From a virus, in IMG/VR virus record IMGVR_UViG_3300028091_000005, positions 19,532-83,531 of that record: a stretch of 64,000 nt of DNA, one strand, 5' to 3'. The notes beneath the pieces were generated by a model. That model was not told the DNA's origin, ran no database searches, and saw nothing but the letters and a program-made list of their open reading frames with translations. Shown piece by piece: positions 5,838-60,345 of this stretch; position 1 is the stretch's first letter, and each line of letters opens with the position of its first letter. Made by a program: the position numbers and the translations under genes.

Positions 5838-6815
5838 ATGTTAAAAAATCAAATATTAAAATATAGTAGGCAAACTACTATGGCTCCACTGGGAGCTTGG
5901 TTTGATCAAACTCTTGACAAACTTATCTATAAAAATACCTACGTCTACGAAGATACTTTAAAAGTGTTTCAGGAACGCCTTGTACAAGGGCTTCGTGATT
6001 ACCGTGACAAATATAAAATAGAAAATGTTGCATTGGGAATGAGTGGTGGTGTAGATAGTGCTCTTACTGCTGCATTATTTAAACAAGCAGGATGGAATGT
6101 ATTGGGCGTTACAATGCCTATACATCAAAATCCTGAAGAAACTGCCCGCGGTATTGAAACAATACAGGCATTAGGTATAGAACATAAACATATAGATCTA
6201 ACTGAAGATTTTGATAGGTTATATAATAGTTTCCTAGCCCGAGACTTTAGTCTAGGCAATAGTCCACTGCGCAGTGGTAATCTAAGAGTTCGTCTGCGTA
6301 TGATGACAGTTTATAATGAAGCTTCACGCATTGGGGGACTAGTAGGCAGTACTGACAACTTTAGCGAACTAGCAGCAGGTTTTTGGACACTACACGGTGA
6401 CGTTGGTGATCTAGCACCCATACAAAGTTTAAACAAAAGTTGGGAAGTTCCTAAACTTGCTGAAATGGCCGGTGTGCCTGATTCCACAGTGTTTGCAAGA
6501 CCCACCGACGGACTAGGCATTAGCAATGGTGATGAAGAACAGTTTGGCTTTAGCTATCTTGAATTTGATATTGTTTTATTGTCTCTAGTCACGGCAGTTG
6601 CAAGGCATAATCTAAAAACTGCTGATCAGATTTTACTAATGTTAGAGGTAGATCCCTCTGATCAAGATACAGTAACTCGTGTTAAAAAAATTCTGGATAG
6701 AATTAAATCAAGTACTTTTAAACGAGCTAACCCCTATAATCTTGCTCATCCTATTGATAGTTATAGGTATCAAGGACTAGCCAATCTTGACCAAGCTCTT
6801 AGATCTAATCTATGA
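5838..6815 (+). CDS. nadE: NAD+ synthetase (ammonia-dependent NadE type)
   Basis: The PP-loop SGGVDS (69-74) of the adenylating amidotransferase/NAD synthetase superfamily is followed by NadE-specific blocks. LVGSTDNFSELAAGFWTLHG matches the GTxNxSE...G region, GDLAPIQSLNK matches the GDxxPI.xLxK region, and RPTDGLGISNGDEEQFGFSY matches the C-terminal P.AxL...DE.ELG.SY element. The enzyme converts nicotinic acid adenine dinucleotide, ATP and ammonia to NAD+. No glutaminase domain is seen. At 325 residues it is slightly longer than bacterial NadE. Its stop overlaps the next ATG, so it belongs to the sugar operon, whose dehydratases use NAD(H). Confidence 0.85.
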   Translation: MLKNQILKYSRQTTMAPLGAWFDQTLDKLIYKNTYVYEDTLKVFQERLVQGLRDYRDKYKIENVALGMSGGVDSALTAALFKQAGWNVLGVTMPIHQNPEETARGIETIQALGIEHKHIDLTEDFDRLYNSFLARDFSLGNSPLRSGNLRVRLRMMTVYNEASRIGGLVGSTDNFSELAAGFWTLHGDVGDLAPIQSLNKSWEVPKLAEMAGVPDSTVFARPTDGLGISNGDEEQFGFSYLEFDIVLLSLVTAVARHNLKTADQILLMLEVDPSDQDTVTRVKKILDRIKSSTFKRANPYNLAHPIDSYRYQGLANLDQALRSNL

Positions 6816-7624
6816 AAAAAATAGCCATACTTGGTGCCAATGGCACTCTGGGAAATTTACTCGGCGTTCTACTTAAAGATGTTGGCACTATATTACCAGT
6901 AACTAGAAAAGATCTCGACTTATTAAACTACACTGCTGTTTATGACTGGCTACAACGAGAACACCCAGATGTAATTATTAACTGTGCTTTCAGTGGCGGT
7001 AGTGTTAATACCACCGATGTTAATTTAAGTGATTTGCAGAGAAATATGCAGATGTTCCTTAATTTTTATCATCAGCCATCTAAATTTAGATATATTAACT
7101 TTGGTAGTGGGGCTGAATTCGATAGAGCTAGGGATATCAATAATGTCCAAGAACTGGAAATTACAGAACGTAATCCCATAGACACCTATGGGCTCGCTAA
7201 AAACTATATTGCCCGCACTATTTGGAAAAGAGACAATTTTTATACATTAAGACTATTTGGTTGTTTTGGTTACAATGAGCCTAGTTCCAGATTATTTAAG
7301 AGACTTCTAAACACAGGCAAACTTAGCGTAATTGATCGTAAATTTGATTTTTTTAGTCATAGAGATATGGCCACTGTCGTTAAACACTACATAAATGCAG
7401 ATCAAAAAGACTTAATCAAAGACATTAATTTAGTCTATAAAGAAAAATACAGTCTATACTATCAGGCATTATTGTTTGCTGACACACATTGCCCAACAGG
7501 GGAAGTTTTACTACAGGGATCTAGTGATCTAAATTATACTGGTAACAGTGACTTATTATATAGTCTTAATCTAGATTTACACGGTTTGAAACAGGGAATA
7601 GAGGATTATAAACCCAATGAATAA
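6812..7624 (+). CDS. NAD(P)-dependent extended SDR, sugar reductase/epimerase (RmlD-like)
   Basis: The Rossmann motif GANGTLG is at residues 8-14 and the active-site Tyr/Lys pair lies in DTYGLAKN, with an upstream serine in NFGSGAEF. The 270-residue size and layout match RmlD-like or GDP-fucose-synthase-like reductases that reduce or epimerise 4-keto sugars. In yersiniose-type pathways an SDR (YerF) performs the last reduction of the branched chain, and this gene could fill that slot. The ATG overlaps the NadE stop and its end overlaps the next gene. Exact reaction inferred. Confidence 0.75.
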   Translation: MKKIAILGANGTLGNLLGVLLKDVGTILPVTRKDLDLLNYTAVYDWLQREHPDVIINCAFSGGSVNTTDVNLSDLQRNMQMFLNFYHQPSKFRYINFGSGAEFDRARDINNVQELEITERNPIDTYGLAKNYIARTIWKRDNFYTLRLFGCFGYNEPSSRLFKRLLNTGKLSVIDRKFDFFSHRDMATVVKHYINADQKDLIKDINLVYKEKYSLYYQALLFADTHCPTGEVLLQGSSDLNYTGNSDLLYSLNLDLHGLKQGIEDYKPNE

Positions 7625-8561
7625 TAAAAAAATAGTATACATAACTGGATGTCTAGGCTTTATAGGAAGCCACCTAACCAGGCAATGTCTTAACCTAGGG
7701 TGGTACGTTTGTGGTGTAGATAAACTTACCTATGCAGCCAATCAACAATTTCTACCCGAATTTAAAAATTATCCTAATTTCAAATTTATAGAAAGCGACA
7801 TTAATGATCTTGATATGCTCTATGAATGTGATTATGTAATCAACACTGCGGCAGAAAGTCACGTGGATAACAGTATTGAAGATAGTGACAGTTTTGTACA
7901 TTCCAACATTAATGGTGTTCATAATCTACTAAAACTTATAGCCAAAAAGAAACAACGTCGTCCTATATTTTTACACTACAGCACAGACGAAGTTTATGGA
8001 GATATTGTAGAAGGCAGTCATAGTGAAAAAGATTTACTCAAACCTAGTAATCCCTATAGCGCAACCAAGGCTGCTGCTGATCAACTAGTGCTAGCCTGGA
8101 GTAGAACACACGGTATTAACTACATCATTGTTAGGCCTACCAATAATTATGGTATTGGACAATACGTGGAAAAACTTATACCCAAGAGTGTTAAATTTCT
8201 GGAAATAGGTAGAAAGATAGACCTACATAATAACGGGACACCTATTAGGACCTGGTTACACGCTGCCGATACAGCTAGGGCCACCATACACATTATTAAT
8301 TCTGGTGTAGTAAACGAAATCTATAACATAAGCGGCAATCTAGAATTACCAAACATAGAAGTGGTTAAAAAGATTCTTGGTCTTTTTGGTATAGAAGAAA
8401 ACATACAGGATTATATTGAGCCCAGTATGAGGCAGGGGCAGGATGTAAGGTACAGCATTGATGATAGTAAATTGAAGAATCTGGGCTGGCAACCTCAGGC
8501 AATATTTGACACAGAGCTAGAAAAAATAGTAGAATACTATAGAAATAATTTTGTGTGGTAA
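7617..8561 (+). CDS. NDP-glucose 4,6-dehydratase (RmlB family)
   Basis: TGCLGFIGSH (10-19) is the NAD-binding glycine motif. AAESHVDNSI and STDEVYG (122-128) are RmlB hallmarks, carrying the Thr/Asp/Glu catalytic set, and Y147-SAT-K151 is the SDR pair. The enzyme makes the 4-keto-6-deoxy sugar nucleotide that starts deoxysugar pathways. The TDE motif fits dTDP-glucose dehydratases better than CDP-glucose dehydratases, although RfbH enzymes downstream normally use CDP sugars. At 314 residues it is shorter than bacterial RmlB (about 350). No nucleotidyltransferase is visible nearby. Confidence 0.85.
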   Translation: MNNKKIVYITGCLGFIGSHLTRQCLNLGWYVCGVDKLTYAANQQFLPEFKNYPNFKFIESDINDLDMLYECDYVINTAAESHVDNSIEDSDSFVHSNINGVHNLLKLIAKKKQRRPIFLHYSTDEVYGDIVEGSHSEKDLLKPSNPYSATKAAADQLVLAWSRTHGINYIIVRPTNNYGIGQYVEKLIPKSVKFLEIGRKIDLHNNGTPIRTWLHAADTARATIHIINSGVVNEIYNISGNLELPNIEVVKKILGLFGIEENIQDYIEPSMRQGQDVRYSIDDSKLKNLGWQPQAIFDTELEKIVEYYRNNFVW

Positions 8562-8563
8562 CA

Positions 8564-9307
8564 ATGACAGTAAAAAACTATATAGTAAATTCAGTAAGGC
8601 CCATACGTAACGGCTGGATGCTGGAAAAAAATCGTGATCTCTACCTAGCCTACCAAAAAATGTCACAATACAGTCGAGCTAGCTATGAGCATTATGTGGA
8701 AGAGCCTTTTGAATACATACAGCTTACAGAAGAAGTAGACGATAATGATACTTACACTCTAGCTGTCTGGGAGGATATTAAACGTATCTGGAATCAGGAG
8801 CCCTGTAATATATTCTTTGCAGGTGCTGATACAATTATGATAAGACCCACCTCACTGTTTGGGGATAGATTTAAAGAGTATAGGATGTTTAACTATACAG
8901 ATCCTAAAAGCGAAGGTGAATTCCAGCATTATTTTAATGATGATATACAGTATTATCCTCATACAATGAGTCGGACAGTCTGGGACCTAGGCGAACAACT
9001 ATGGTCACAGAGAGTGGGTCATCCTTATCAACACTGGGGATTTGATCAGGTTAGGCATAATTATATGTTCTGGAGTCAGGATATACCAATGGAGGATAGA
9101 TTCCATCCTGAGTTGGCTTACCAAGCTATGAACCTAAGGGCACTAACAGAACAGGCCATTGCCTGGCATAATTCCTGGAACGGTATTGATATTAATGCAG
9201 CACACATACTACACTTCCACGCTAGTCGTGGCAGTCAACAAGTAATAGATCTTATGAAATATTTTTGCGACTATTTAGAAATTCCCTATGACAACTCCAA
9301 CACTTGA
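8564..9307 (+). CDS. Putative glycosyltransferase-like protein
   Basis: The 247-residue protein contains a hydrophobic strand ending NIFFAGADTIMIRP, like the DxD-bearing strand of nucleotide-sugar transferases in which an acidic residue binds metal and donor. Many Trp and His residues (QHWGFDQVRHNYMFW) are typical of acceptor regions. The ATG at 8564 is preferred over an upstream GTG at 8555. Its end overlaps the aminotransferase-fold gene by 20 bp, placing it inside the sugar operon, where a transferase for the finished sugar would be expected. The motif evidence is weak, so the function is inferred. Confidence 0.5.
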   Translation: MTVKNYIVNSVRPIRNGWMLEKNRDLYLAYQKMSQYSRASYEHYVEEPFEYIQLTEEVDDNDTYTLAVWEDIKRIWNQEPCNIFFAGADTIMIRPTSLFGDRFKEYRMFNYTDPKSEGEFQHYFNDDIQYYPHTMSRTVWDLGEQLWSQRVGHPYQHWGFDQVRHNYMFWSQDIPMEDRFHPELAYQAMNLRALTEQAIAWHNSWNGIDINAAHILHFHASRGSQQVIDLMKYFCDYLEIPYDNSNT

Positions 9308-10622
9308 TAAAATATTAGAATTAGTAGAACAACATTATAAAGAACGTCAGGAATCCCGTACCTGGACTGCGGGTCGAGATTTTGTAAACTATGCTGGCGC
9401 CTACTACGATCAGGAGGAATATCTAGCAGGTGTCAAAAGCCTACTTAGTGGCTGGTTGGCAATGGGTAATGAAAGTTTAAAATTTGAACGACAGTTCCCC
9501 AAACAGTTTGGAAAAAAACTTGGTATAGTTACTAATTCAGGTAGCAGCAGTAACCTATTAATGATGGCAAGTCTTACCAGCAAACGTGGATACAATTTAC
9601 CTAAAGGCACCAAGGTTCTTATGCCTATTGCAGGTTTTCCTACTACACTAAACCCTACATTGCAAATGGGTTTTACGCCAGTGTTTGTGGACATAGAGCT
9701 TGATACTCTCAACCTAGATCTTGATCAGGTGGAGGCTGCACTTAAACAAAATCCTGATATTAGAGTCATTACCTTTGCGCACGTACTGGGAAATCCTCCC
9801 AATATGGATAGAGTAATGGAAATAGTTAAAAAATATGATCTTATTCTATTAGAAGATTGCTGCGATGCTCTAGGAAGTACCTATAGAGAGAAACCACTGG
9901 GTAGTTATGGTCTTATGGCTAGTTGTAGTTTTTATCCTGCTCACCATATGACTATGGGCGAAGGTGGTTATGTAGCCACTGATGATCCCGAACAAGATAT
10001 TATTTTAAGAAGTTTTAGAGAATGGGGTCGCGGCTGTTATTGTGTGGGACCTGAAGCTAATAAACTAAAATGTGGCACTTGTGGAACTAGATTTAAAAAT
10101 TGGATACCCACTATGCCGGATGAAATTTTTGATCACAAATATGTATATGATGAGATTGGATACAATCTTAAGCCAATCGAACTACAGTGTGCAATGGGCA
10201 TCAAACAACTGGATAAGTTGCCGGAAATACACGCACTACGTAGACGAAACTACCAACTATTATTTTCCATATACGAGAAATATGAAGAATATTTTCATCT
10301 TCCTAGAGCTCAGGAACACAGCGACCCCAGCTGGTTTGCTTTTCCACTAACAGTAAGATCAAACGCTCCGTTTACTCGTGCGGATATAGTTGACTACCTG
10401 GAAGAAAAATTGATTCAGACTAGACCCTACTTCGCTGGTAACATTATGTTGCAACCAGCTTACAGTCATTTAATGGATCAAAATTTAGCAAAAAATAATT
10501 TCCCCAATGCAACACTAGCAATGACCAACACCTACTTCCACGGCACTAGCCCGGTAATCACTCCCGAGCAGATTGCCTATATTGGAGAAGTAGTAGACGG
10601 ATTTATGAGTCTGTTCAATTAA
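9288..10622 (+). CDS. rfbH: RfbH-type NDP-4-keto-6-deoxyglucose 3-dehydrase (PMP/Fe-S enzyme)
   Basis: This is a DegT/DnrJ/EryC1-fold protein of 444 residues in which the usual PLP lysine is replaced by histidine: SFYPAHHMTMGEGG places H220 at the position of the known catalytic His of E1/RfbH. Four cysteines follow (C250, C252, C262, C265), in the region where E1 binds a [2Fe-2S] cluster, though the spacing differs from the classic C-x-C-x2-C-x7-C. The enzyme removes the C3 hydroxyl of a 4-keto-6-deoxy sugar nucleotide to give a 3,6-dideoxy sugar and needs a reductase partner (E3), which is not visible here. It lies between a glycosyltransferase-like gene and the YerE-like gene. Confidence 0.88.
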   Translation: MTTPTLDKILELVEQHYKERQESRTWTAGRDFVNYAGAYYDQEEYLAGVKSLLSGWLAMGNESLKFERQFPKQFGKKLGIVTNSGSSSNLLMMASLTSKRGYNLPKGTKVLMPIAGFPTTLNPTLQMGFTPVFVDIELDTLNLDLDQVEAALKQNPDIRVITFAHVLGNPPNMDRVMEIVKKYDLILLEDCCDALGSTYREKPLGSYGLMASCSFYPAHHMTMGEGGYVATDDPEQDIILRSFREWGRGCYCVGPEANKLKCGTCGTRFKNWIPTMPDEIFDHKYVYDEIGYNLKPIELQCAMGIKQLDKLPEIHALRRRNYQLLFSIYEKYEEYFHLPRAQEHSDPSWFAFPLTVRSNAPFTRADIVDYLEEKLIQTRPYFAGNIMLQPAYSHLMDQNLAKNNFPNATLAMTNTYFHGTSPVITPEQIAYIGEVVDGFMSLFN

Positions 10623-10637
10623 TTACAGAGGAACACT

Positions 10638-12398
10638 ATGAGAGGCGATCAATACGTAGCACAATTTTTAAAAGCAATTAATAGCAACAAGGTATTTTTA
10701 GTACAGGGCGGAGCTTGTGCCTTTATGCTAGATGCAGTGGGCGAAACACCTGGAATGAGTTATGTGGCCTTCCAGCACGAACAGGCAGCGGCTATGGCGG
10801 CTGATGCACTCTGGCGAACCAGCGGCCAGCTGGGGGTGACATTCTGCACCAGCGGACCAGGCGCAAGTAATCTATTAACAGGCATCGCCTGCGGCTACTA
10901 CGATAGCATACCCAGCCTACATATCTGTGGTCAGGTGAACGGTAAAGAGGTAGCACAGTATAAAGGTGCCAAAGTAAGACAGGCTGGATTCCAGCAGATG
11001 GACATTGTAAGTATGGCCAAGCCTGTATGTAACTATGCCGTGGCAGTGACCAAGGCCAGTGAGCTACCACTTGCTCTTAAAACTGCTGTGGAACAGGCGT
11101 TTACTGGCAGAATGGGACCAGTGTTAGTGGACATTCCTATGGACATACAGACGGAAGACATAGGCACAGATGAAATATTGTTACCAGAAATTAAAGTTCC
11201 CAGTATTGCAGATGATCAAACACAAATTATTGCTAATAGCGTAAATGAATTTTTCCAGTCAGGTCAAAGGCCCTTGGTTGTATTAGGAGCTGGTGTTGAA
11301 CTAGCAGGCAGACAACAAGAGATGGTAGACTGGTTACAGAAAACTCGAACACCGTTCGTGGCCAGCTGGAGTGCTCTAAATATTTTTGATCATAGTATGC
11401 CTAACTATCTAGGTCATTTTGGTGTCTACGGTAACCGTGGTGGTAACTATGTAATACAAAACGCAGATCGCATTCTGGTATTAGGCAGCAGACTGGATAA
11501 TCGTCAGACTTCAGGCAACGTGGATAATTTTGCGCCCAGTGCTAAACTAATGGCCCTGGATATTGACGGCGAAGAATTAATAAAGTATCCTGATAGATTT
11601 ACAGGTATACAAGTTAACCTTACACACCTTGATAAAATTTTACCTAATGTTGCTGCGCCAGAAGCTAGTTCAGACTGGCTGGAATATACTAATAGAATTA
11701 GAGAAAAATATCTAAACACCGATATTAGTCAGGAAAGTGAAAAATATAACAGTCTTAATCCCTACAGTGTAGTTAGAAAGATAACTAGTCTGCTTGATGA
11801 TGATGCGCACATCTTTGCTGATGCTGGTGCCAACCACGTTTGGCTCTATCAGATGTGGAATCGTAAAGGTAGACAAAAATTATTTACTAGTAGCGGTCAC
11901 TATGCAATGGGTTACAGTCTACCTGCTGCTATTGGTAGCCTAATAGGAAATCCTGAAGTTCAGGCAGTCAGTTTTAATGGTGATGGTGGTGTACAGATGA
12001 ACATACAGGAACTACAGACTGCAAGAGAATATGGTCTAGACATCAAAGTGGTGGTATTTAATAACCAGGGTCTGGGTATGATACGTCAATTCCAGAATAG
12101 TTATATGGGTGGACGCCATCACGCCACCACACAGGGTCAGGGACCAGGTGTTCCTGATTTTGAAAAACTAGCTGCCGCCTACGGTATGAAATATACCAAG
12201 GTTGTGGACCTTAAGCAATTAGACAGTGACTTATTCCAGCAAGGTTCAAGATTAATAGAATGTGTGATTGACCAACGAGTGCTTATTGAACCCAAATTGG
12301 AAATGGGAAGACCAATTAATGATCAGTTCCCCTACGTCACTGACGAAGAATTTTTAGAAAACAACCAATTTGTGGAATACACCCACAGAAAAAAATAA
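10638..12398 (+). CDS. TPP-dependent acetolactate synthase-family enzyme, YerE-like
   Basis: The 586-residue protein has the three-domain IlvB layout. The N-terminal Pyr domain has the TPP-activating Glu (E48 in AFQHEQAAAMAAD), the central domain has a Rossmann-like region, and the C-terminal PP domain has the GDG...NN thiamine signature (NGDGGVQMN to VVFNNQGLG). In an operon with RfbH the best parallel is YerE of Yersinia, which transfers a two-carbon acetyl unit from pyruvate to C4 of a 3,6-dideoxy-4-keto sugar to make a branched-chain sugar. A plain acetolactate synthase or other decarboxylase is possible, but no branched-chain amino-acid genes are nearby. It closes the sugar operon. Confidence 0.75.
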   Translation: MRGDQYVAQFLKAINSNKVFLVQGGACAFMLDAVGETPGMSYVAFQHEQAAAMAADALWRTSGQLGVTFCTSGPGASNLLTGIACGYYDSIPSLHICGQVNGKEVAQYKGAKVRQAGFQQMDIVSMAKPVCNYAVAVTKASELPLALKTAVEQAFTGRMGPVLVDIPMDIQTEDIGTDEILLPEIKVPSIADDQTQIIANSVNEFFQSGQRPLVVLGAGVELAGRQQEMVDWLQKTRTPFVASWSALNIFDHSMPNYLGHFGVYGNRGGNYVIQNADRILVLGSRLDNRQTSGNVDNFAPSAKLMALDIDGEELIKYPDRFTGIQVNLTHLDKILPNVAAPEASSDWLEYTNRIREKYLNTDISQESEKYNSLNPYSVVRKITSLLDDDAHIFADAGANHVWLYQMWNRKGRQKLFTSSGHYAMGYSLPAAIGSLIGNPEVQAVSFNGDGGVQMNIQELQTAREYGLDIKVVVFNNQGLGMIRQFQNSYMGGRHHATTQGQGPGVPDFEKLAAAYGMKYTKVVDLKQLDSDLFQQGSRLIECVIDQRVLIEPKLEMGRPINDQFPYVTDEEFLENNQFVEYTHRKK

Positions 12399-30653: not shown

Positions 30654-31040
30654 ATGGCATATTCGGATCAGGTAGTAGATCATTACGAAAATCCAAGAAA
30701 TGTAGGTAAATTAGATAAAAATGACCCAGCAGTGGGAACTGGTCTAGTAGGCGCACCTGCCTGTGGAGATGTTTTACAATTGCAAATTAAGGTAGAAGAT
30801 GACATTATTACAGATGCCAAATTTAAGACTTATGGTTGCGGTTCAGCGATCGCATCTTCGTCGCTTGTCACTACGTGGCTTAAAGGAAAGAGTATTAACG
30901 AGGCGGCAGCGATTAAGAATACCGATATTGCGGAAGAACTCGCGTTACCTCCAGTCAAAATCCACTGTTCCATATTGGCGGAAGATGCAATTAAAGCGGC
31001 CCTAGCAGACTATAAAAGTAAACATTTAGCAGATCAATGA
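30654..31040 (+). CDS. iscU: IscU Fe-S cluster scaffold
   Basis: The 128 residues match bacterial IscU in length. All key residues are present: C37 in GAPACGDV with D39, C62 in TYGCGSAIASSS, and C105 in KIHCSILAEDAI. The LPPVK peptide (residues 98-102) that HscA-type chaperones recognise is also intact. IscU receives sulphur from a cysteine desulphurase and builds [2Fe-2S] clusters. No phage IscS is visible, so host IscS would be needed. Its stop overlaps the radical SAM start. Confidence 0.95.
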   Translation: MAYSDQVVDHYENPRNVGKLDKNDPAVGTGLVGAPACGDVLQLQIKVEDDIITDAKFKTYGCGSAIASSSLVTTWLKGKSINEAAAIKNTDIAEELALPPVKIHCSILAEDAIKAALADYKSKHLADQ

Positions 31041-32764
31041 TAAAAGTTTTATTTTATCATAAAGTAGCAGTATTTGCAGCTTCTTTTGATTTTGATTATT
31101 TCAGAGACGGTATACAGACTGTTTATCCATCTCTAGCCAGTGTATATCTTAAAACGCACTTGGAACTTAACAATCCAGATTTAGCTAATAAGGTAGAATG
31201 GTTATTGCCTATACAGTTTGAAAAAAACAATCAAGAACTAATAGACATAATAAACAAAGAAAAACCTGATCTATTTTGCACAGGCCATTATATTTGGAAT
31301 CACGATAGTATTATGGAACAATTAGAGGCTATTAAGCCTCATATTCCTTCACAAACTAAAATAGTTGTGGGGGGACCGCATATAGATGTTGCACAAAATC
31401 CAGATTTTTTTACAAAATATCCTTTTGTTGACTATGCTATCTATGCTTCCGGCGAAAATGCTTTTGCTGACTTAGTTAATAGTATTGTAAACGATAAAAA
31501 ATTAATAGCATTTAATGTTTCTAATCTTGCGTGGTTTGATAAGGAAAAAAATAAACAGATAGTCGCAGAATGGAAATATGTTCCACAGAATAAAACAAGT
31601 CCCTATTTGTATAATCGAGATTATTTTTCTAGAATAATAAAAGATATTTTCCAACAGGGTTACGAAGTAAGTATGCCCTACGAACTCACACGAGGCTGCC
31701 CCTACGCTTGTACTTTTTGTGACTGGAACTCAGGGTTTACTAACAAAACTACTAGACGCAAAGGCAGCTATCAGGATGAAATAGATTTATTCCAGGAACT
31801 AGGAATCAAAAATATATTATTATCAGATGCCAACGTGGGACAATACGAGGAAGATATAGATCTAGTAAAATATATTCTTGAAAAAAATACCAAGGAAAAT
31901 GCAGGTTTCAAAGTAGACGGCAATTTTGCTAAACTTAAAAAAGACAATGTGTTAAAGATGTTTCATATTATTGCTAGAATTAACACAAACAATTTTACTG
32001 AATCTACTGGACTTGGTTTTATGTTAGCAGTTCAGGATATCAATAAAGAGGTGCTTAAAAACATCGATAGACCTGATGTAGGCTGGGACGATCATTTAAA
32101 GATGGCCTACGAACTGCGAGAGTCATATCCCCAAATACAAACCAAGGTACAAGTAATTCAAGGCCTACCGGGACAAACTAAAGAAAGCTGGAGAGCTACA
32201 CTTGCAGAAATAGCTAGACATAATATTGTACTTCAGCCCTTTTTACATTCTTTGTTACCTAGCAGTCCAGCCTATATGAATCCTGAATATGCTGCTAAAT
32301 GGAAACCTACCTATAGCGATAGTATAAGATACAGTGCAGACCATAAGTACTTCCGTGGCACATTTATGTCCTCTTGTGTATCTTTTTCTGAATCAGATAT
32401 GGTAGAAATGTCGGTTATTACACAATTTTATGTTACACTTACTACCTTCAAGTTTTTATATCAATATTTAAATTTTGATTTTGAAAAAATTGTTACAGCT
32501 TTTACTAAAACCAAATATTATCACGGGTTAAGAGAAAACCTATATACTAATTGGAAAGAAAAAGACAGTTATTACTACACTGTAGATTTAGATTTAAATA
32601 ATAAAATATATTCGGCTTGTGAATATGGTTATGCTGCCAGTCACTGGGCGTTTGCAGATAGCATTACTAAACTAGTTTTGGAAAATGTTGACAAAACACA
32701 AAGAACAAACTTTTTTAAAAACGGTAGAAAAAGTAGAATTATTAAAATTCCGGAGTATGCATAA
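31037..32764 (+). CDS. B12-binding-domain radical SAM enzyme
   Basis: The 575-residue protein begins with a Rossmann-like region to about residue 160 matching cobalamin-binding-domain radical SAM proteins (KIVVGGPHIDV, YAIYASGENAF). Next comes the [4Fe-4S] motif CPYACTFC (C221, C225, C228) after ELTRG, and a TIM-barrel segment with ILLSDANVG. The C-terminal 200 residues are aromatic-rich and unassigned. Such enzymes methylate or rearrange unreactive carbons in lipids, antibiotics or peptides. The substrate here is unknown. It lies between iscU and iscA with overlaps at both ends. Confidence 0.88.
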   Translation: MIKVLFYHKVAVFAASFDFDYFRDGIQTVYPSLASVYLKTHLELNNPDLANKVEWLLPIQFEKNNQELIDIINKEKPDLFCTGHYIWNHDSIMEQLEAIKPHIPSQTKIVVGGPHIDVAQNPDFFTKYPFVDYAIYASGENAFADLVNSIVNDKKLIAFNVSNLAWFDKEKNKQIVAEWKYVPQNKTSPYLYNRDYFSRIIKDIFQQGYEVSMPYELTRGCPYACTFCDWNSGFTNKTTRRKGSYQDEIDLFQELGIKNILLSDANVGQYEEDIDLVKYILEKNTKENAGFKVDGNFAKLKKDNVLKMFHIIARINTNNFTESTGLGFMLAVQDINKEVLKNIDRPDVGWDDHLKMAYELRESYPQIQTKVQVIQGLPGQTKESWRATLAEIARHNIVLQPFLHSLLPSSPAYMNPEYAAKWKPTYSDSIRYSADHKYFRGTFMSSCVSFSESDMVEMSVITQFYVTLTTFKFLYQYLNFDFEKIVTAFTKTKYYHGLRENLYTNWKEKDSYYYTVDLDLNNKIYSACEYGYAASHWAFADSITKLVLENVDKTQRTNFFKNGRKSRIIKIPEYA

Positions 32765-46945: not shown

Positions 46946-49900
46946 ATGGCAAAACAAACAATAAACCTTGGCTCAGGGCCAGACAGCTACACTGGCGATA
47001 GTTTAAACGTAGCCTTCACTAAAATTAATGAAAACTTTACCGAGCTCTATGCTGGTAATTCCGTGGGTAACATAAGATCCAGCGGCAACATTATTGCCAA
47101 CACCAGCCTCAGAACCGACGGGTTCATACGTGGTGACAGCCTGGAAATTATTTCCAATGCCTCAGTACTGGGTACTATTTCAGCCAATAACTTTACCTAC
47201 GCCAATGGTGTGGCACTGGGTAATTTCAGTAATGTCACTATTAATACTTCGGGAAATATCTCAGGTAACACAATTTCAGCTAATTCATTCTCGGGCTCAG
47301 GTACCTTCACTGATGTCGTAGTCACTGGCAACCTATCAGTCAACGGCACTACTACCTATATTGATGTCACTAGAACTAATATCTCGGACCCCATCGTGGA
47401 AATTGGTGGGAACACGGCTGGTGGCGCACTGACCAGTAACGACACCAAGGATCGAGGGTTCATATTACACTACTATAATGGTGCTGCCCGTGATGCCTTC
47501 CTGGGCTGGGACGTTAGTAGTAGCGAATTTAGAATCGCAAGTAACGCCATTGTGGTCAACAATGAAGTACTGTTATACAATACCTACGCCAACGTGCGAG
47601 CTGGATACTTTATAGGTAACGGAAGTCAGCTTACAGGAATAACAAGCTATGCTAATTCTAATGTTGTGGCCTACGCAGCGGCTGGCTGGTCTGGTAATAT
47701 CATACCAAATGCTAATAGTACCTACACACTAGGTAACTCAACAAATCAGTGGAAAAGCTTATATGTAAGCAATAATACAATTTTTATTGATAATATCCCT
47801 ATTAGTGTTTCTAATGGATCACTCAGCGTAAACAATCAACCAGTGGCAAGTACGGGTTGGTTCTCTTTTGATCAGGCCGTGATCAAGGGCAGTAGCGACT
47901 ACCAGTATACTTTTAACTACGACGGTTATTTTAGTAGTTCTCAGAATACAGAAAGTCCCAACTACTTTTTTGTACCCTATAACACCGTTAATTCTCAGAT
48001 TGAAGCTGGGTGGTTAGTACAAGGTTCTCTATGCGACACCACAGTGGCAAACACAGTGTATCCCGTGGGTGGTTATCCTGGTGTTATAAAAGTAAATCTA
48101 ACTACTCCAGCTTCGGGAACTGTTGGATTTTACCCAGTTACAGTTACAAGTCCGCAGCACCAACAGGTTAGATTGGAACCTGAGCCTGGTAGTGGTACAC
48201 AATTTATTTTTGACAACTCTGGTAACTTAACCTTGCCTGGTGGAGCCATTGTTGGTGGTTCTAGTTATGATATTAATCTAGTTGCTAGTGATGATGGCGT
48301 AGCCACCGCTGGTACCATAAACATAAAGACTAATAACCCCGCTATTGGAGAATCTTTTTCTTGGCAGTTTAATTCACTGGGTGAAATAGAACTTCCGCAG
48401 GGTGGTTTGATTAAAGAAGGTGGTGGTCCATTTGGTAGTAGTATTACACTAGAACCAGCAAACATTACTGACGGTGATCAGGTGCTAGTTGTATATCCCA
48501 CCTTTGCGGAAGGTAATCATTTACATCTTACCACAGGCAATCTCTACAACACTGAAATGTATCTGGGTAGCGACGACTATTATGTAAAGTTGACTAATAG
48601 CGGAACTATTGTAGTTAATGCTAACGACAACACTAGCTCTCAGGCTACGTGGGAATTTATGCCTCTTGGCGATTTAAGACTTCCCCAAGGAGGCGTAATT
48701 GGCGAGACGGCGAATCCCGGAAGTTTTCCAGGTTCGGCCATTGGCCTACAACCAGATGGGTTCATAAATCTTAATCAAAAGCTTCTAGTATATCCCACTG
48801 GCGGCACAGACTACAATCACCTGCATTTAACTTCTGGTGATCTGTATGATACTGAACTTTACTTGGGTAATGATAATCTCTATGTTAAATTAGCCAACAC
48901 AGGCAATGTGGAAATTCGTGCCGATGATAATTCAGGTAATAGTGCCCAGTGGACTTTGAGCAAAGACGGGAACATCACATTACCAACCAATATCTCTCGA
49001 ATAAACTATGCAAATGGTACAAGTATTCTAGAAGGGGTTAGCAGTAACTATGGTAATACCGAGGTCGCCGCTTATCTACCAACATATACAGGTAACTTGG
49101 CTGCCTCCCGGGCACAGGTGACCAACAGCCTAGATTTTATGTATGGTGGTTTTCCTCACTTTGGATGGCAGTTAGCTAACTCAGAAACTCTACAACTTCG
49201 AGTTAACTTAGCATCGGGAGATCTTAATACTAATGTAGTCACTGTTGATAGGCAGAGTGGTAATGTAACTTTTGCTCAAAGTATTATAACAACCGACGGT
49301 ATTTACTGGAGCAATGGCAATGCCTACAGCACAGGTACCAGTTACACTGACAGTAATGTTACTTCATTATTGAGCTCCCTGGGCTCTAATGTAATTTCCA
49401 CCACGGGTAACATTTCAGGTAACTTTGTTGCACCTGCTTCCACAGCCAACACACAAATACTGTTTAATAATTCCGGCAGAATAGGTGGTGTGCCACAGTT
49501 CACCTTTGATATAAATGGCAATACATTAACTCTGGCAGGTAGCTCAACACTTAAAGTGGCGGATATTCAAACACCTTCAGGTGCACTGAGACTGATACCT
49601 AGCTCGGGCATTACTTACAGCTACGGTAATTTCCATCCATTATTTGCCAATACTTACAGTCTAGGACAATCCTCAGGCCGCTGGCAGAGCTTCTTTGCAA
49701 ACACCGCCAATGTTGTCACATTGGAAACAGAGGGCAATATCAGTACAGGTAACCTTATTACTGCTAATACAGGAAACGTAATTCTGGGTGGCGCAAATAG
49801 TTATCTGAAACAAAACAGTAGTAACGCACGTATTAATTTATCAGGTAGTATCACACTAACTCCTGACACTAATGCAGATGCTACCAATGGTGTTATAATT

Positions 49901-52099
49901 GGCGGCAATGGGTATCTGTTATCCTCTAGCGGCAGCAGAAATGCAGTCTTAAACTACGGTGGCGGTTCAGGCACAATGGGAATTTACACACTCAATGTCT
50001 ATGGTAACACTGCCACTGCTATCCACAACGGCGGAGCCAACGGCGTGGGGAATATTGGTGGTAATACTTCCAATAGATTTAATACCTTGTTTGCTCTAGC
50101 TGCTGATTTGACTGGTAATTTAACTGCTGGTAATATCCTAACAAATAATTTTTACTATGCTAATGGAACACCATTTGTTCCCGGCAGCACCTATACCGAC
50201 AGCAATGTAACATCGTTATTGGCTGCACTGGGCTCTAACTCCATCAGTACCACGGGCAACATCACGGCAGGTAATATCAGTGGCAATATTTCCATTACTG
50301 GAAACGTAACTGGTACCAGCACTAACGTAACCTTGGTTGCAGGTAGTTACAGTTGGACATTTAACAATGCTGGTAATCTTGTACTACCTGGTAATACATT
50401 TAGCATTAACTATGCCAACGGCGCAGCGGTGAGCCTAGGCAGTGGTGGTGCTGGTAATTATGGTGATAGCAATGTAGTATCTCTGTTAGGCGCCTACGGT
50501 TCTAATACTATGACCACCACAGGAAACATCACAGGTGGTAATTTAATTGCTTACAGTACCATTTTTGGCAATCCGGATATTATATTAGGTAATACTGCCA
50601 ATACTTCAGCTACCAAGACACGCATTGTATCCGATGCCGCATTTAGCTATATCCAAACAGGTAACGGAACTGCTGGTACTACGGGTAACATTGTATTTGC
50701 CCCATATGCATCTGCTACACAAAAAGTTGTAGTAGATACTTCTAGCGGCAACATCAGCACCATAGGCAACACTGCGTTTACCACAAATAATGGCTCCCTA
50801 GTGTTTAACACCGGCGCTTATATCAGTGGTAATGGTGCACCAATCTCCAGAGAAGGCAGTATTGTTTTATCACCCTACACAGGTGCAGGATCCACATTCC
50901 CTGGAGTTGTGATCGGCGGTGCTGGTAGATTGATGGCCCCAAATGGTAGTGTACATCAAATATTCAATCCTAGTGATGTTACAACGCAGGTAGCTAGCAA
51001 AATAACAGTTGGCACATCTGCTACATCAACCACAACTGGTGCATTACAAGTCACAGGTGGTGTGGGCGTAAGTGGTAACATCTATGCAGGCGGCACTGCC
51101 ACCACAGGTGTTGGTGCATTGGTGGCTGGTGTTACAAACACATTGTTAGCTAATACCTCGGCTGGATTTACTGCCAATGTAAACAGCTATGCACAAGTCA
51201 CGTTCCAAAATAAAAATACCGGTGCTGATGCCACGGCTGATTTTATTCTTACAGCAGATAACGGTTCCGATTCAGTAAACTACGGTGACTTTGGTATAAT
51301 TAACTCGGGTTACGATAATGCTACACCCACCAACAGTCTGGGTAACATTGTCTATGCCGCCGACACCTACTTGTATGCACAGGGCAATGTTTCCAATTCA
51401 AGTCAGAGTGGTGGTAACCTTGTAATTGGTACCACCACTCCAGATAAAACAGTCAAGATATTTGCGGGTGGTGCTAATGTAAGTTCTCTAGTGGCCAATA
51501 TCTCCAACGTGGGCGTTAGCATCACTGGCTCACTGACCACCACGGGAAATATCACCACAGCGAACATAACTGGTACTTCAGCCAATGTAACTATTACAGC
51601 CAACAACTTTGTAAGTACTTTTGACACCACGGGCCTAGTCACACTGCCTGGTAACCTCACAGTGAACGGTAGTGGTGGTATCAAGATGCCCAACCTACCA
51701 GCGTTCCGTGTTTATGGTACTGTTAGTACTCAAATTACCGCGAACACTACAGTTAATTCAACACACGGTACCACAGTGGATTACAACCAAGGCAGTTATT
51801 ACAATAACACCACGGGCATATTCACTGCCCCCATAGCAGGTTTATATCATTGTTATGCCACATTGCGTGTTGGTACCAATAATGGTTTGAACCAGGCTAG
51901 CATACAGAAAAATTCCAGCAGTTCTGGCGCTAATGTTGTAGCATTCTGGGAAACAGATACCAATACTGGAGTAGCCACACACTTCTCAATGACTGGTTAC
52001 GCTAAATGCGCAGTGGGTGATACCTTGAGATTGCAAGTAATATCAGGTAATATTAATTTAGACAGCAATGATAACTGGGGCGTCACCTATATAGGTTAA
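46946..52099 (+). CDS. Long tail fibre protein with C-terminal C1q-like domain, 1717 aa
   Basis: The N-terminus (QTINLGSGPDSYTGDSLNVAFTK and on) is typical of tail-fibre or baseplate attachment modules. Most of the length is a repetitive, Gly/Asn/Thr/Ser-rich shaft with many GNISGN, TTGNI and NGSQLTG-like repeats that form trimeric beta structures. The last 140 residues (FRVYGTVSTQITANTT, YYNNTTGIFTAPIAGLYHCYATL) match the C1q/TNF jelly-roll head, a receptor-binding tip. It is the largest gene in the window and heads a fibre/adhesin operon with a late-type promoter. Confidence 0.88.
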   Translation: MAKQTINLGSGPDSYTGDSLNVAFTKINENFTELYAGNSVGNIRSSGNIIANTSLRTDGFIRGDSLEIISNASVLGTISANNFTYANGVALGNFSNVTINTSGNISGNTISANSFSGSGTFTDVVVTGNLSVNGTTTYIDVTRTNISDPIVEIGGNTAGGALTSNDTKDRGFILHYYNGAARDAFLGWDVSSSEFRIASNAIVVNNEVLLYNTYANVRAGYFIGNGSQLTGITSYANSNVVAYAAAGWSGNIIPNANSTYTLGNSTNQWKSLYVSNNTIFIDNIPISVSNGSLSVNNQPVASTGWFSFDQAVIKGSSDYQYTFNYDGYFSSSQNTESPNYFFVPYNTVNSQIEAGWLVQGSLCDTTVANTVYPVGGYPGVIKVNLTTPASGTVGFYPVTVTSPQHQQVRLEPEPGSGTQFIFDNSGNLTLPGGAIVGGSSYDINLVASDDGVATAGTINIKTNNPAIGESFSWQFNSLGEIELPQGGLIKEGGGPFGSSITLEPANITDGDQVLVVYPTFAEGNHLHLTTGNLYNTEMYLGSDDYYVKLTNSGTIVVNANDNTSSQATWEFMPLGDLRLPQGGVIGETANPGSFPGSAIGLQPDGFINLNQKLLVYPTGGTDYNHLHLTSGDLYDTELYLGNDNLYVKLANTGNVEIRADDNSGNSAQWTLSKDGNITLPTNISRINYANGTSILEGVSSNYGNTEVAAYLPTYTGNLAASRAQVTNSLDFMYGGFPHFGWQLANSETLQLRVNLASGDLNTNVVTVDRQSGNVTFAQSIITTDGIYWSNGNAYSTGTSYTDSNVTSLLSSLGSNVISTTGNISGNFVAPASTANTQILFNNSGRIGGVPQFTFDINGNTLTLAGSSTLKVADIQTPSGALRLIPSSGITYSYGNFHPLFANTYSLGQSSGRWQSFFANTANVVTLETEGNISTGNLITANTGNVILGGANSYLKQNSSNARINLSGSITLTPDTNADATNGVIIGGNGYLLSSSGSRNAVLNYGGGSGTMGIYTLNVYGNTATAIHNGGANGVGNIGGNTSNRFNTLFALAADLTGNLTAGNILTNNFYYANGTPFVPGSTYTDSNVTSLLAALGSNSISTTGNITAGNISGNISITGNVTGTSTNVTLVAGSYSWTFNNAGNLVLPGNTFSINYANGAAVSLGSGGAGNYGDSNVVSLLGAYGSNTMTTTGNITGGNLIAYSTIFGNPDIILGNTANTSATKTRIVSDAAFSYIQTGNGTAGTTGNIVFAPYASATQKVVVDTSSGNISTIGNTAFTTNNGSLVFNTGAYISGNGAPISREGSIVLSPYTGAGSTFPGVVIGGAGRLMAPNGSVHQIFNPSDVTTQVASKITVGTSATSTTTGALQVTGGVGVSGNIYAGGTATTGVGALVAGVTNTLLANTSAGFTANVNSYAQVTFQNKNTGADATADFILTADNGSDSVNYGDFGIINSGYDNATPTNSLGNIVYAADTYLYAQGNVSNSSQSGGNLVIGTTTPDKTVKIFAGGANVSSLVANISNVGVSITGSLTTTGNITTANITGTSANVTITANNFVSTFDTTGLVTLPGNLTVNGSGGIKMPNLPAFRVYGTVSTQITANTTVNSTHGTTVDYNQGSYYNNTTGIFTAPIAGLYHCYATLRVGTNNGLNQASIQKNSSSSGANVVAFWETDTNTGVATHFSMTGYAKCAVGDTLRLQVISGNINLDSNDNWGVTYIG

Positions 52100-52102
52100 A
52101 CA

Positions 52103-52636
52103 ATGACAATAAGAAAACTACATTCAAATAATATAACTGAAAATAGAGCAGATATCGCAACACAATATACCGAACTGTTTTTTGACGATGTGGCTAATTC
52201 TATATTATTGCCTGATCCCACGGGATTATTAGAGACAAAGATAGGTGCTACTAGTTCAGGAACTGGGCTTAAAGGCTTTGCATCGGGTTATGTAGACGCA
52301 GGCACGTTTATTACCCTAGACAATCTTAAGTTTAGTGTAACAACTGGCGGCAATAGAGGCCTGTGTTGTGCTACAGTAACAGGTTCAGTGAATCTTATGA
52401 TCTCTGGAACATTTGGCTACATTAACGGCGTCGGTGGTGGTTCAACTAACGGAGGAACAGCGTACACTTATACCACAACTCCAAGCGGATCGTGGTTTGG
52501 TTGGAGTTTTCCCAATGCAGGTGATGGTGCTGTATATCTAGTTAATGATACTACAAACCAGCGTTTCTATAGAGTCACTATGATGATTGGTCCTAGCTAT
52601 ACAAAGAACTTTATCAGTATAGAACGATTAGGTTAA
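52103..52636 (+). CDS. Fibre-associated/adhesin protein, 177 aa
   Basis: The protein begins MTIRKLHSNNITENR and has beta-rich Gly/Thr segments, including GGSTNGGTAYTYTTTPSG, and a C-terminal strand set ending FISIERLG. It follows the long fibre by three bases. It may be a fibre tip or an assembly protein. No domain is firmly recognised. Confidence 0.6.
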   Translation: MTIRKLHSNNITENRADIATQYTELFFDDVANSILLPDPTGLLETKIGATSSGTGLKGFASGYVDAGTFITLDNLKFSVTTGGNRGLCCATVTGSVNLMISGTFGYINGVGGGSTNGGTAYTYTTTPSGSWFGWSFPNAGDGAVYLVNDTTNQRFYRVTMMIGPSYTKNFISIERLG

Positions 52637-52654: not shown

Positions 52655-53440
52655 ATGGATATTAGAGGAGTTAATTTATCAGGTGTTGCCATACGAGACA
52701 CCACTGTCAAGGGCACACTGGCTAACCCTGGTGTGTCTGCGCAGGACATCTACAATTCCGGACAGACTAGTTCAGGTTGGTACTATATAAAAACCAGCAC
52801 TATGGGTAGTGCACGTCAGGTCTACTGTAATATGACTGACGAGAGTGGCGGCTGGATGCTGATAGCCTACACTCCTGGATTCACTGGCACTGGTGTGGCA
52901 GGCGTAACTGCTGGCCTGGGTTATCCTAACACCTGGGAGAATGGCGAAGGTACTTTAAACAAACTTCGTGCCAGCACAATGGATCTCTGGTACCATAATA
53001 GCACGGCACAGTGTTCACAGGTATTAAAGATGGCCAGTACTACGGCGAGTCAAACTCCACTGCTGGCTAGTATGAGTATAGCCAATAAAGTTATATACAC
53101 CAATGCCAGTAATTTATCATTAAGTGCGGTGAGTAATTATCCAGCATTTGTAAATAATACCCCAATGACAGGTACCTGGTATCCAGTCAAAGGGCATACA
53201 CAAATGAACACTAGCCTGAGTGTAAATGCACCAGGTGATTGGATATATCAGGCTAACTCCTGGTGGACAGTTTGTGGACCTAGTACAGAATTGCAAGCTC
53301 AGGGTCGTTCGGGTAATGCACAGGGTACTGGTTCCTGGACTAGCCCATCAGCAAACAATCTCTACGGTATGTCTGATGTAACCGCTGTCACAAACAGTCT
53401 TCGTTCTGACATTAATAGCTACGCAGTCTACATAAAATAA
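52655..53440 (+). CDS. Fibrinogen-like adhesin, 261 aa
   Basis: After a short N-terminal motif (MDIRGVNLSGVAIRD) shared with the next two genes, residues about 27-75 read SAQDIYNSGQTSSGWYYIK followed by VYCNMTDESGGWMLI. This is the opening of fibrinogen-related domains (C..I...G..SG.Y.I...V.C.M...GGW). Fibrinogen-like folds bind acetylated sugars. Such domains appear in phage tail adhesins. The remainder is beta-rich. Likely an exchangeable receptor-binding tip. Confidence 0.75.
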   Translation: MDIRGVNLSGVAIRDTTVKGTLANPGVSAQDIYNSGQTSSGWYYIKTSTMGSARQVYCNMTDESGGWMLIAYTPGFTGTGVAGVTAGLGYPNTWENGEGTLNKLRASTMDLWYHNSTAQCSQVLKMASTTASQTPLLASMSIANKVIYTNASNLSLSAVSNYPAFVNNTPMTGTWYPVKGHTQMNTSLSVNAPGDWIYQANSWWTVCGPSTELQAQGRSGNAQGTGSWTSPSANNLYGMSDVTAVTNSLRSDINSYAVYIK

Positions 53441-53449
53441 TTCAGATAT

Positions 53450-54136
53450 ATGATAATTCAAGGTGTATCATTAACAGGAACAAGAGTTGTTGATGCTTCT
53501 ATTATAACATCTAATCTTGCGATTTGGCTGGACGCTGACAATTCAACCAGCTATCCCGGAACAGGTACCAGCGTCTTTGATTTATCTGGTAACGGATATA
53601 CACATACACTAAGTTCATCAGGAATCTATACCACACTCAGTGGTGTCAAATGTTTTGATTGTTCTAGCACGGGGGAGGTATCCGCCGCTGTGACTGGACC
53701 AATACTACCCACCACGGGTTTTACCTACATTTGTTGGGGTAGATTGCTAAACAGTACATCGGGCTGGCGAACATTATGGAGGACCACACCAGATGACCAT
53801 CCATTATTAATAGAACTAGGGAGTAATCGCCTGGGTATGTACGACAATAACGGTGGTTTGTTTCAGTATTCTGGTTACACTGCCACTGGATTAGCAAATA
53901 TTTGGGTGCAATATGCTGTGACGGGAACTAATACAGCACAAACATTTTACATTAATGGACAGCAGGTGGGAACCACTGCCTACGGTACTGGTGGAAATCG
54001 TCATAATGAATGGGGTAGCACTGGTGGCGGACAACCGTTTGGGTATGTTGCTAATATGTTTTTATATTCTAAGATTCTCACACAAGAACAAATACAGCAA
54101 AACTATTATGGTTTAAAAGGAAGGTTTGGTGTATAA
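53450..54136 (+). CDS. LamG/concanavalin-like lectin adhesin, 228 aa
   Basis: The N-terminal MIIQGVSLTGTRVVD motif is followed by a LamG-type jelly roll: AIWLDADNSTSYPGTG at the start, GFTYICWGRL in the middle, then YAVTGTNTAQTFYINGQQVG and the closing NMFLYSKILTQEQIQQNY. That last element (small helix after the final strand) is diagnostic of LamG-like proteins. It probably binds surface glycans. Confidence 0.8.
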   Translation: MIIQGVSLTGTRVVDASIITSNLAIWLDADNSTSYPGTGTSVFDLSGNGYTHTLSSSGIYTTLSGVKCFDCSSTGEVSAAVTGPILPTTGFTYICWGRLLNSTSGWRTLWRTTPDDHPLLIELGSNRLGMYDNNGGLFQYSGYTATGLANIWVQYAVTGTNTAQTFYINGQQVGTTAYGTGGNRHNEWGSTGGGQPFGYVANMFLYSKILTQEQIQQNYYGLKGRFGV

Positions 54137-54141
54137 CTAAT

Positions 54142-54894
54142 ATGATTATTCAAGGAGTAACACTTAACGGAGTAACAGTAACTGACACTAGGTATGTGAC
54201 TGCAAACTTGCAGTATTACCTGGATGCAGGTAAAACCACAAGCTACAGTGGTAGTGGCACTTCTATCAACAACATTGCTAACACTGCTATATCTACCAGT
54301 ACCTTGGCCAATGGCCCTGTGTTCACTTCAGCAGGTAGTAATAGTTATTTTACTTTTGATGGTAGCAATGACACACTTTATACACCCAGTATGATAAGCC
54401 TATTTAACAGCCCAGTTAATAATAATCTCACCCTGGAGGCCTGGGTTTACACTAGCTCTGATAACGGTGTAGTCGTAACCGAACAAGGCGCTAGTCCCAT
54501 TAATAGTGGTTGGCACGACAGCCAGATAGAGATAGTGTCAGGTAATCTAAGAGTTTCAGTATGGACTCCCAGTGGCATAAGTCCCCTTACCATTGGCGCG
54601 GTCACACGAAATCAATGGCAGCAATATGTTTTAACCTACGATTCCGCCACGTCTACTCTACGTGGTTATATAAATGGGTCAACAACCGCAAGCCTGACTG
54701 GAGTTTCAAGAGACAGTCCACAGGAAGGGTTTGCCTCAGAGTTGTACTACGCTTTGATGTGTGCAGACGGAACCAGTCTTGGTGATGGCAGCTCATTGGC
54801 AGGTCGTTGGAGTATATTCCGTGTATATAATCGAGCACTCTCCGCGGCTGAAGTTCTGCAGAACTACAATGCTGAGGTTGGTAGATATAGTTAG
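54142..54894 (+). CDS. LamG/concanavalin-like lectin adhesin, 250 aa
   Basis: Same architecture as its neighbour: MIIQGVTLNGVTVTD, YYLDAGKTTSYSGSG, NLTLEAWVYTS, YVLTYDSATSTLRGYINGS and the closing IFRVYNRALSAAEVLQNY. Sequence has diverged strongly outside the signature strands, so receptor specificity probably differs. It ends in TAG followed by TTT TGA. Confidence 0.82.
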   Translation: MIIQGVTLNGVTVTDTRYVTANLQYYLDAGKTTSYSGSGTSINNIANTAISTSTLANGPVFTSAGSNSYFTFDGSNDTLYTPSMISLFNSPVNNNLTLEAWVYTSSDNGVVVTEQGASPINSGWHDSQIEIVSGNLRVSVWTPSGISPLTIGAVTRNQWQQYVLTYDSATSTLRGYINGSTTASLTGVSRDSPQEGFASELYYALMCADGTSLGDGSSLAGRWSIFRVYNRALSAAEVLQNYNAEVGRYS

Positions 54895-59584: not shown

Positions 59585-59956
59585 ATGGCACATTACGCAT
59601 TTCTAGATGAAAATTATGTTGTAACAGAAGTTATAACAGGAAAAGACGAAGATGAAGGTCTTTATGACTGGGAAAAGTTTTATGCAAGTGAACGTGGTCA
59701 GATGTGTAAACGTACCAGTTATAATACCTGGGGCGGGCAGCACAAAGAAGGAGGCACTCCTTTTCGTAAAAATTATGCAATTATAGGCGGTATCTATGAC
59801 CCAGATCGTGATGCATTTATACCTCCACGTGATTTTCCAAGCTGGATTTTAAATGAAACAACCTGCCTCTGGGAAGCACCAGTTCCTTATCCCAATGATG
59901 GCCAGACTTATTTTTGGAACGAGCAAGATCAGATCTGGTCTATTAGGTTAGGTTAA
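59585..59956 (+). CDS. Tail-associated protein, copy 1 of tandem pair, 123 aa
   Basis: The protein begins MAHYAFLDENYVVTEVI and ends with a conserved block (FPSWILNETTCLWEAPVPYP, NDGQ, WNEQDQIW). The next gene encodes a clear paralogue. Such proteins accompany fibre genes in aquatic T4-like phages. The small beta-rich, Trp-rich C-terminal block may be a docking module. Function not known. Confidence 0.65.
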   Translation: MAHYAFLDENYVVTEVITGKDEDEGLYDWEKFYASERGQMCKRTSYNTWGGQHKEGGTPFRKNYAIIGGIYDPDRDAFIPPRDFPSWILNETTCLWEAPVPYPNDGQTYFWNEQDQIWSIRLG

Positions 59957-59979
59957 CATATTAATAATAGGAAAATACA

Positions 59980-60345
59980 ATGGCACATTTTGCTAAAATT
60001 GGTATTGACAACATTGTGCTAGAAGTGCTGGTTGTCAATAATATAGATACAATGACTCCGCAGGGAGAAGAACGAGAAGAAATTGGTGTAGAGTTTTTAC
60101 GAAAATTAACTGGACACGAATCCTGGAAGCAAACTTCTTATAATGGAAATTTTAGAAAAAACTATGCTGGAGTTGGTTACACTTATGACTCGGCCCGCAA
60201 TGCATTTATTCCACCAAAAAATTTCCCAAGCTGGGTGTTAAATGAAGATACGTGTCGTTGGGAAGCACCAGTACCTTATCCTAATGATGGATCGCCCTAT
60301 TACTGGAACGAGCAAGATCAGATCTGGTCACCTAGACTGGATTAA
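59980..60345 (+). CDS. Tail-associated protein, copy 2 of tandem pair, 121 aa
   Basis: Paralogue of the preceding gene. FRKNYAGVGYTYDSARNAFIPP and FPSWVLNEDTCRWEAPVPYP are nearly the same, while the N-terminal half is diverged (IGIDNIVLEVLVVNNIDT). The duplication with a conserved C-terminal half suggests two proteins that use one docking block with different N-terminal partners. Confidence 0.65.
   Translation: MAHFAKIGIDNIVLEVLVVNNIDTMTPQGEEREEIGVEFLRKLTGHESWKQTSYNGNFRKNYAGVGYTYDSARNAFIPPKNFPSWVLNEDTCRWEAPVPYPNDGSPYYWNEQDQIWSPRLD

Follow-up and report, generated by a model that had tools for sequence, protein, structure and literature searches.

A 15-residue N-terminal tag common to fibrinogen-like and LamG proteins behind a long tail-fibre gene in a lineage of large phages

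Described receptor-binding systems and the present locus

Modular receptor-binding proteins with common N-termini are already known. In Klebsiella phage KP32 the conserved peptide (CP) of RBP2 (gp38) docks on the T4 gp10-like branching domain of RBP1 (PMC13082707), and the CP is the closest documented counterpart of the tag described here. In both cases a secondary receptor-binding protein, encoded by the next gene after the primary one, opens with a short conserved peptide, and we count on the same side the fact that the domain following the CP is active without it (PMC13082707), whereas the cargo is a depolymerase in KP32 and a LamG or fibrinogen-like domain here. Since neither Pfam nor sequence searches against solved structures revealed a T4 gp10-like branching domain in the long fibre of our window (the whole stretch of 64,000 nucleotides analysed), the tag may work like KP32 docking but was not classed as a member of that system. 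Pfam likewise showed no depolymerase domain here.

The gp38 proteins of T2-type phages and S16 resemble the present proteins in being separate tips, attached through the N-terminus to the long fibre and encoded right behind the fibre gene (PMC12892980). However, they consist of polyglycine-II helices with hypervariable loops, while a ConA-like jellyroll or a Fibrinogen_C domain occurs here, and their exchanged N-terminal part spans 113 residues as against 15 (PMC12892980). In the branched tailspikes of CBA120 and RaK2, several receptor-binding proteins per phage are similarly joined via conserved N-terminal parts, but these are folded head domains on depolymerases, whereas here the lectin domain begins at about residue 20-23 (PMC10253068). 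The cultured marine phages S-SKS1, S-CAM8 and S-CREM2 and Flavobacterium phage immuto carry LamG proteins at their fibre loci, as here, but with N-termini unrelated to the tag; in cyanophage S-SKS1 (L210:4218-7112) two tandem LamG genes share an N-terminus of their own, ...FTGTKSDDPNYS... (...GTKSDDPNYS...). What is new is that lectin folds unrelated to one another carry a common 15-residue tag in uncultured large phages, with parallel classes of tags existing alongside it. Our literature search returned no paper joining LamG, fibrinogen and phage tail fibres.

The tagged genes and the extent of the tag

The window belongs to a virus record of 83.5 kb from an uncultured relative of giant phages. 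Its DnaB-like helicase shares 51% identity with those of jumbo phage PA5oct and relatives, and 50% with the Atu_ph07 enzyme. The relevant features, all on the plus strand, are the following:

46946..52099, +, gene of a long tail fibre (1717 aa) whose C-terminal domain is C1q-like, adjoining the tip genes on their upstream side (ORF and Pfam)
52103..52636, +, stand-alone protein of 177 aa whose N-terminus differs from the tag
52655..52699, +, tag 1, MDIRGVNLSGVAIRD, opening the fibrinogen-like gene 52655-53440 (261 aa; ORF and start-pattern count)
52712..53440, +, fibrinogen-like domain, residues 20-261 (Fibrinogen_C; conserved from residue 20 onward in relatives with other N-termini)
53450..53494, +, tag 2, MIIQGVSLTGTRVVD, opening LamG gene 1, 53450-54136 (228 aa; ORF and start-pattern count)
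53513..54136, +, LamG domain 1 (Laminin_G_3; alignment)
54142..54186, +, tag 3, MIIQGVTLNGVTVTD, opening LamG gene 2, 54142-54894 (250 aa; ORF and start-pattern count)
54205..54894, +, LamG domain 2, ConA-like jellyroll (Laminin_G_3; AlphaFold; Foldseek)

The three tip genes are consecutive and lie on the same strand. Both LamG proteins matched Laminin_G_3 (PF13385) well above its curated cut-off of 27.6 bits (43.8 bits, E=4e-11 for LamG 1; 54.5 bits, E=2e-14 for LamG 2). The fibrinogen-like protein passed the 22-bit cut-off of Fibrinogen_C (PF00147) with 27.4 bits (E=3.7e-6) over residues 29-70 of 261 only, and a profile search against solved structures returned angiopoietin and fibrinogen chains over about residues 24-72 only. 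The C1q match of the long fibre (residues 1596-1675, E=6.4e-5) scored 23.6 bits, just under the cut-off of 23.7. Residues 49-176, approximately, of the 177-aa protein matched the C-terminal domain of relatives' long fibres in a phmmer search of the ORFs of the fetched loci; a fibre-end domain of relatives is thus a separate protein here.

The original prediction held that the three tip proteins share a 10-residue start and then diverge completely. The common start was confirmed: the 10-mer, loosened to allow any residue at positions 2, 4, 7 and 9, occurred at 3 of the 369 ATG starts of the window (ORFs of at least 60 aa) and at none of 5,973 in 79 control loci fetched via LamG homology alone. 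It proved longer than proposed, extending over 15 residues as M-x-I-x-G-V-x-L-x-G-x-x-[VI]-x-D and ending on aspartate 15. The divergence holds between the fibrinogen-like and LamG proteins but not between the two LamG proteins, which are distant relatives with 23% identity on alignment.

The tag can be read as pentads (e.g. IQGVT/LNGVT/VTD) in which hydrophobic residues and glycine alternate. An origin as a copy of a fibre shaft repeat was rejected, the window's fibres having neither tag-like pentads nor a lag-5 hydrophobic periodicity. Internal or fused copies that would tie the tag to a fibre were not found in longer fibres, the only matches being what appear to be the tag genes themselves, extended in frame on the upstream side. 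Pattern matches of the type 'MSIDGVALSG...', which look Toprim-like by eye only, were excluded as internal ATGs in far longer frames (start index mostly 200-258).

A usable structural model was obtained for LamG 2 alone among the tip proteins (AlphaFold, monomer, 46 homologues), the fibrinogen-like protein returning a pLDDT of 31.5 from only 7 sequences. The model showed a jellyroll (pTM 0.79) whose first strand starts at residue 23, while residues 1-20 had no regular secondary structure and pLDDT values of 64 and 74, compared with 94-95 at residues 21-40. The tag is therefore predicted to sit outside the lectin fold of LamG 2, rather than buried within it; burial would have spoken against the original prediction. 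Foldseek related the fold to ConA-like domains generally; its hits to neurotoxin receptor-binding domains and sialidases, at about 10-18% identity, reflect only the common ConA-like jellyroll and say nothing on toxicity.

Phage lineage and exchange of domains behind the tag

Relatives were gathered by two DNA-pattern scans for the tag, which in viral contigs was found to open at least 59 different proteins, some of them near-copies; long records hold one or two copies of it, at a single site. LamG is the cargo of most tagged proteins. A fibrinogen-like domain follows the tag in L085 and slightly changed tags in L084 and L086, and glycine-rich proteins follow it in L148 and in L146, the latter with a weak Ig-like match. 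Further glycine-rich proteins of 348-385 aa (L126, L145, L155 and L158) start with MIIQGATI, and the one of these that was searched gave no Pfam match. At the tag positions left free by the search pattern the residues were strongly restricted while synonymous codons differed, indicating that the constraint acts on the protein and not on the nucleotides; synonymous identity at shared tag codons was 0.40 against 0.29 expected from codon usage, a modest excess. A nucleotide element was ruled out by the same variation of codons.

Of the 40 records with tag or tag-like starts, 20 held a helicase with 59-75% identity to the window's, and so did 9 of the 11 among them of at least 100 kb. As fragmentary records can hide genes, its absence from a short record means little. 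Such a helicase was missing from all 45 records whose LamG or fibrinogen proteins start differently (best 51%, others at most 28%). The tag tracks the phage lineage and the lectin domain does not. Absence of the motif from homologues, which was to count against the original prediction, was seen only in other phage lineages, where the same domains have different N-termini.

Identity of the fibrinogen-like protein is 80-81% in L084-L086, where its starts are tag-like, and 63-73% in L087-L089, where its N-termini are unrelated to the tag; conservation starts at residue 20, immediately after the tag. Similarly, the LamG proteins of L119 and L138 share 201 of 216 domain residues (93%) and 7 of 20 at the N-terminus, the two N-termini being unrelated. 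When presence of the tag was mapped on a FastTree tree of 210 LamG domains, 16 changes were required, and well-supported branches made at least seven of these unavoidable. In other phages, short LamG proteins open with different short sequences and often stand in tandem arrays; several of these N-terminal classes look like short glycine-separated beta repeats (e.g. GIxIGGGI, SLTLSNNGGNG). At L089:3909-8043 three nearby proteins, one with a fibrinogen domain, share the start MAT..F.YNP..NP.I..TEQVG, which may represent a parallel adaptor system distinct from the tag. A two-way exchange is well supported, domains being swapped behind the tag and the same domains occurring behind other N-termini. 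The tag is thus real, conserved at the protein level, separable from the domain that follows and exchanged against other N-termini.

Gene order and possible roles of the tag

Among 64 tag genes having an upstream neighbour, 42 lie directly behind a recognised fibre end and the others mostly behind another tip gene. The upstream gap has a median of 1 nt, and 28 genes overlap their neighbour by 1 or 4 nt. This position directly behind fibre genes ties the tagged proteins to the fibres; together with the homologues and the LamG tree, it bears out the proposal of interchangeable modules behind one tag, and the three tagged genes of the window suggest host-recognition tips that can be exchanged for one another. 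The initial proposal that all dock on the same fibre end was weakened by our data, since the recognised ends fall into at least five C-terminus types and a single fibre end is not the obvious dock, unless these ends share a fold hidden from sequence. Candidates for a common dock in the upstream fibres were not decisive, either the 'LGxxxxRW' module (9/37 vs 0/33) or TGNI repeats (32/37 vs 14/33). The fibre of one relative (L086:6525-9998) combines Mtd_N (the N-terminal domain of the major tropism determinant), collagen repeats and a weak C1q-like end.

We consider it probable that the 15 residues are a short N-terminal adaptor which, in one lineage of large phages, marks stand-alone recognition tips (LamG, fibrinogen-like, glycine-rich) encoded directly behind the long fibre gene. 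The tag would seat each tip on a virion structure common to the lineage, most likely the tail-fibre complex, and such seating would let recombination immediately after the tag bring in new lectin domains. The main rival to the adaptor reading is self-assembly, in which copies of the tag would come together as a short glycine-separated beta-stub, trimerising each tip or nucleating its folding without a common partner. The alternation of hydrophobic residues and glycine along the pentads suits such a beta pattern, as does the similar look of several other N-terminal classes of LamG tips; however, self-assembly alone leaves unexplained both why the tag follows the lineage and not the domain and why it is always placed at the extreme N-terminus, and we regard it as unlikely.

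The breakpoints immediately after the tag could also be read as a recombination seam or inherited leader, a 5' gene end kept by the joining of domains and encoding a peptide without a role. This seems decidedly improbable given that amino acids and not nucleotides are constrained (synonymous identity 0.40, 0.29 expected). A location of the tips on the capsid, or elsewhere on the virion away from the tail fibres, is brought up by the best match of LamG 2, PHROG 8510, classed as 'head and packaging, virion structural protein'. Tag genes, however, stand consistently right behind fibre genes, and so do LamG genes of cultured phages, following a 'long tail fiber protein' in S-CREM2 and a 'putative tail fiber-like protein' in immuto, so that we hold such a location to be very improbable.

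An extension of the adaptor reading, to which we give slightly less than an even chance, is that the tag is a portable plug of one large-phage lineage fitting at least three unrelated folds (LamG, fibrinogen-like and glycine-rich/Ig-like) to one common site on the virion, and that it stands among several such plug systems existing in parallel (M..GPxIVTDGL, GIxIGGGI, MAT..YNP..TEQVG), so that tip domains would move from lineage to lineage by a change of plug only. If the tag does dock, lineage-specific plugs would explain the spread of unrelated lectin folds among phages with no fibre in common, and recognition tips of uncultured large phages could be located simply by searching their sequences for the tag. 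The tag also offers a candidate minimal docking peptide that can be tested directly.

Elsewhere in the window, a B12-binding radical-SAM protein without a PHROG match is encoded at 31037-32764, and two adjoining similar genes, apparently paralogues, lie at 59585-60345, the second matching phrog_7759. A run of sugar-metabolism genes at 5838-12398 comprises NAD-synthase-type, DegT/DnrJ aminotransferase and thiamine-pyrophosphate enzyme genes and two NAD-dependent epimerase/dehydratase genes, one like GDP-mannose 4,6-dehydratase; the run possibly alters surface glycans.
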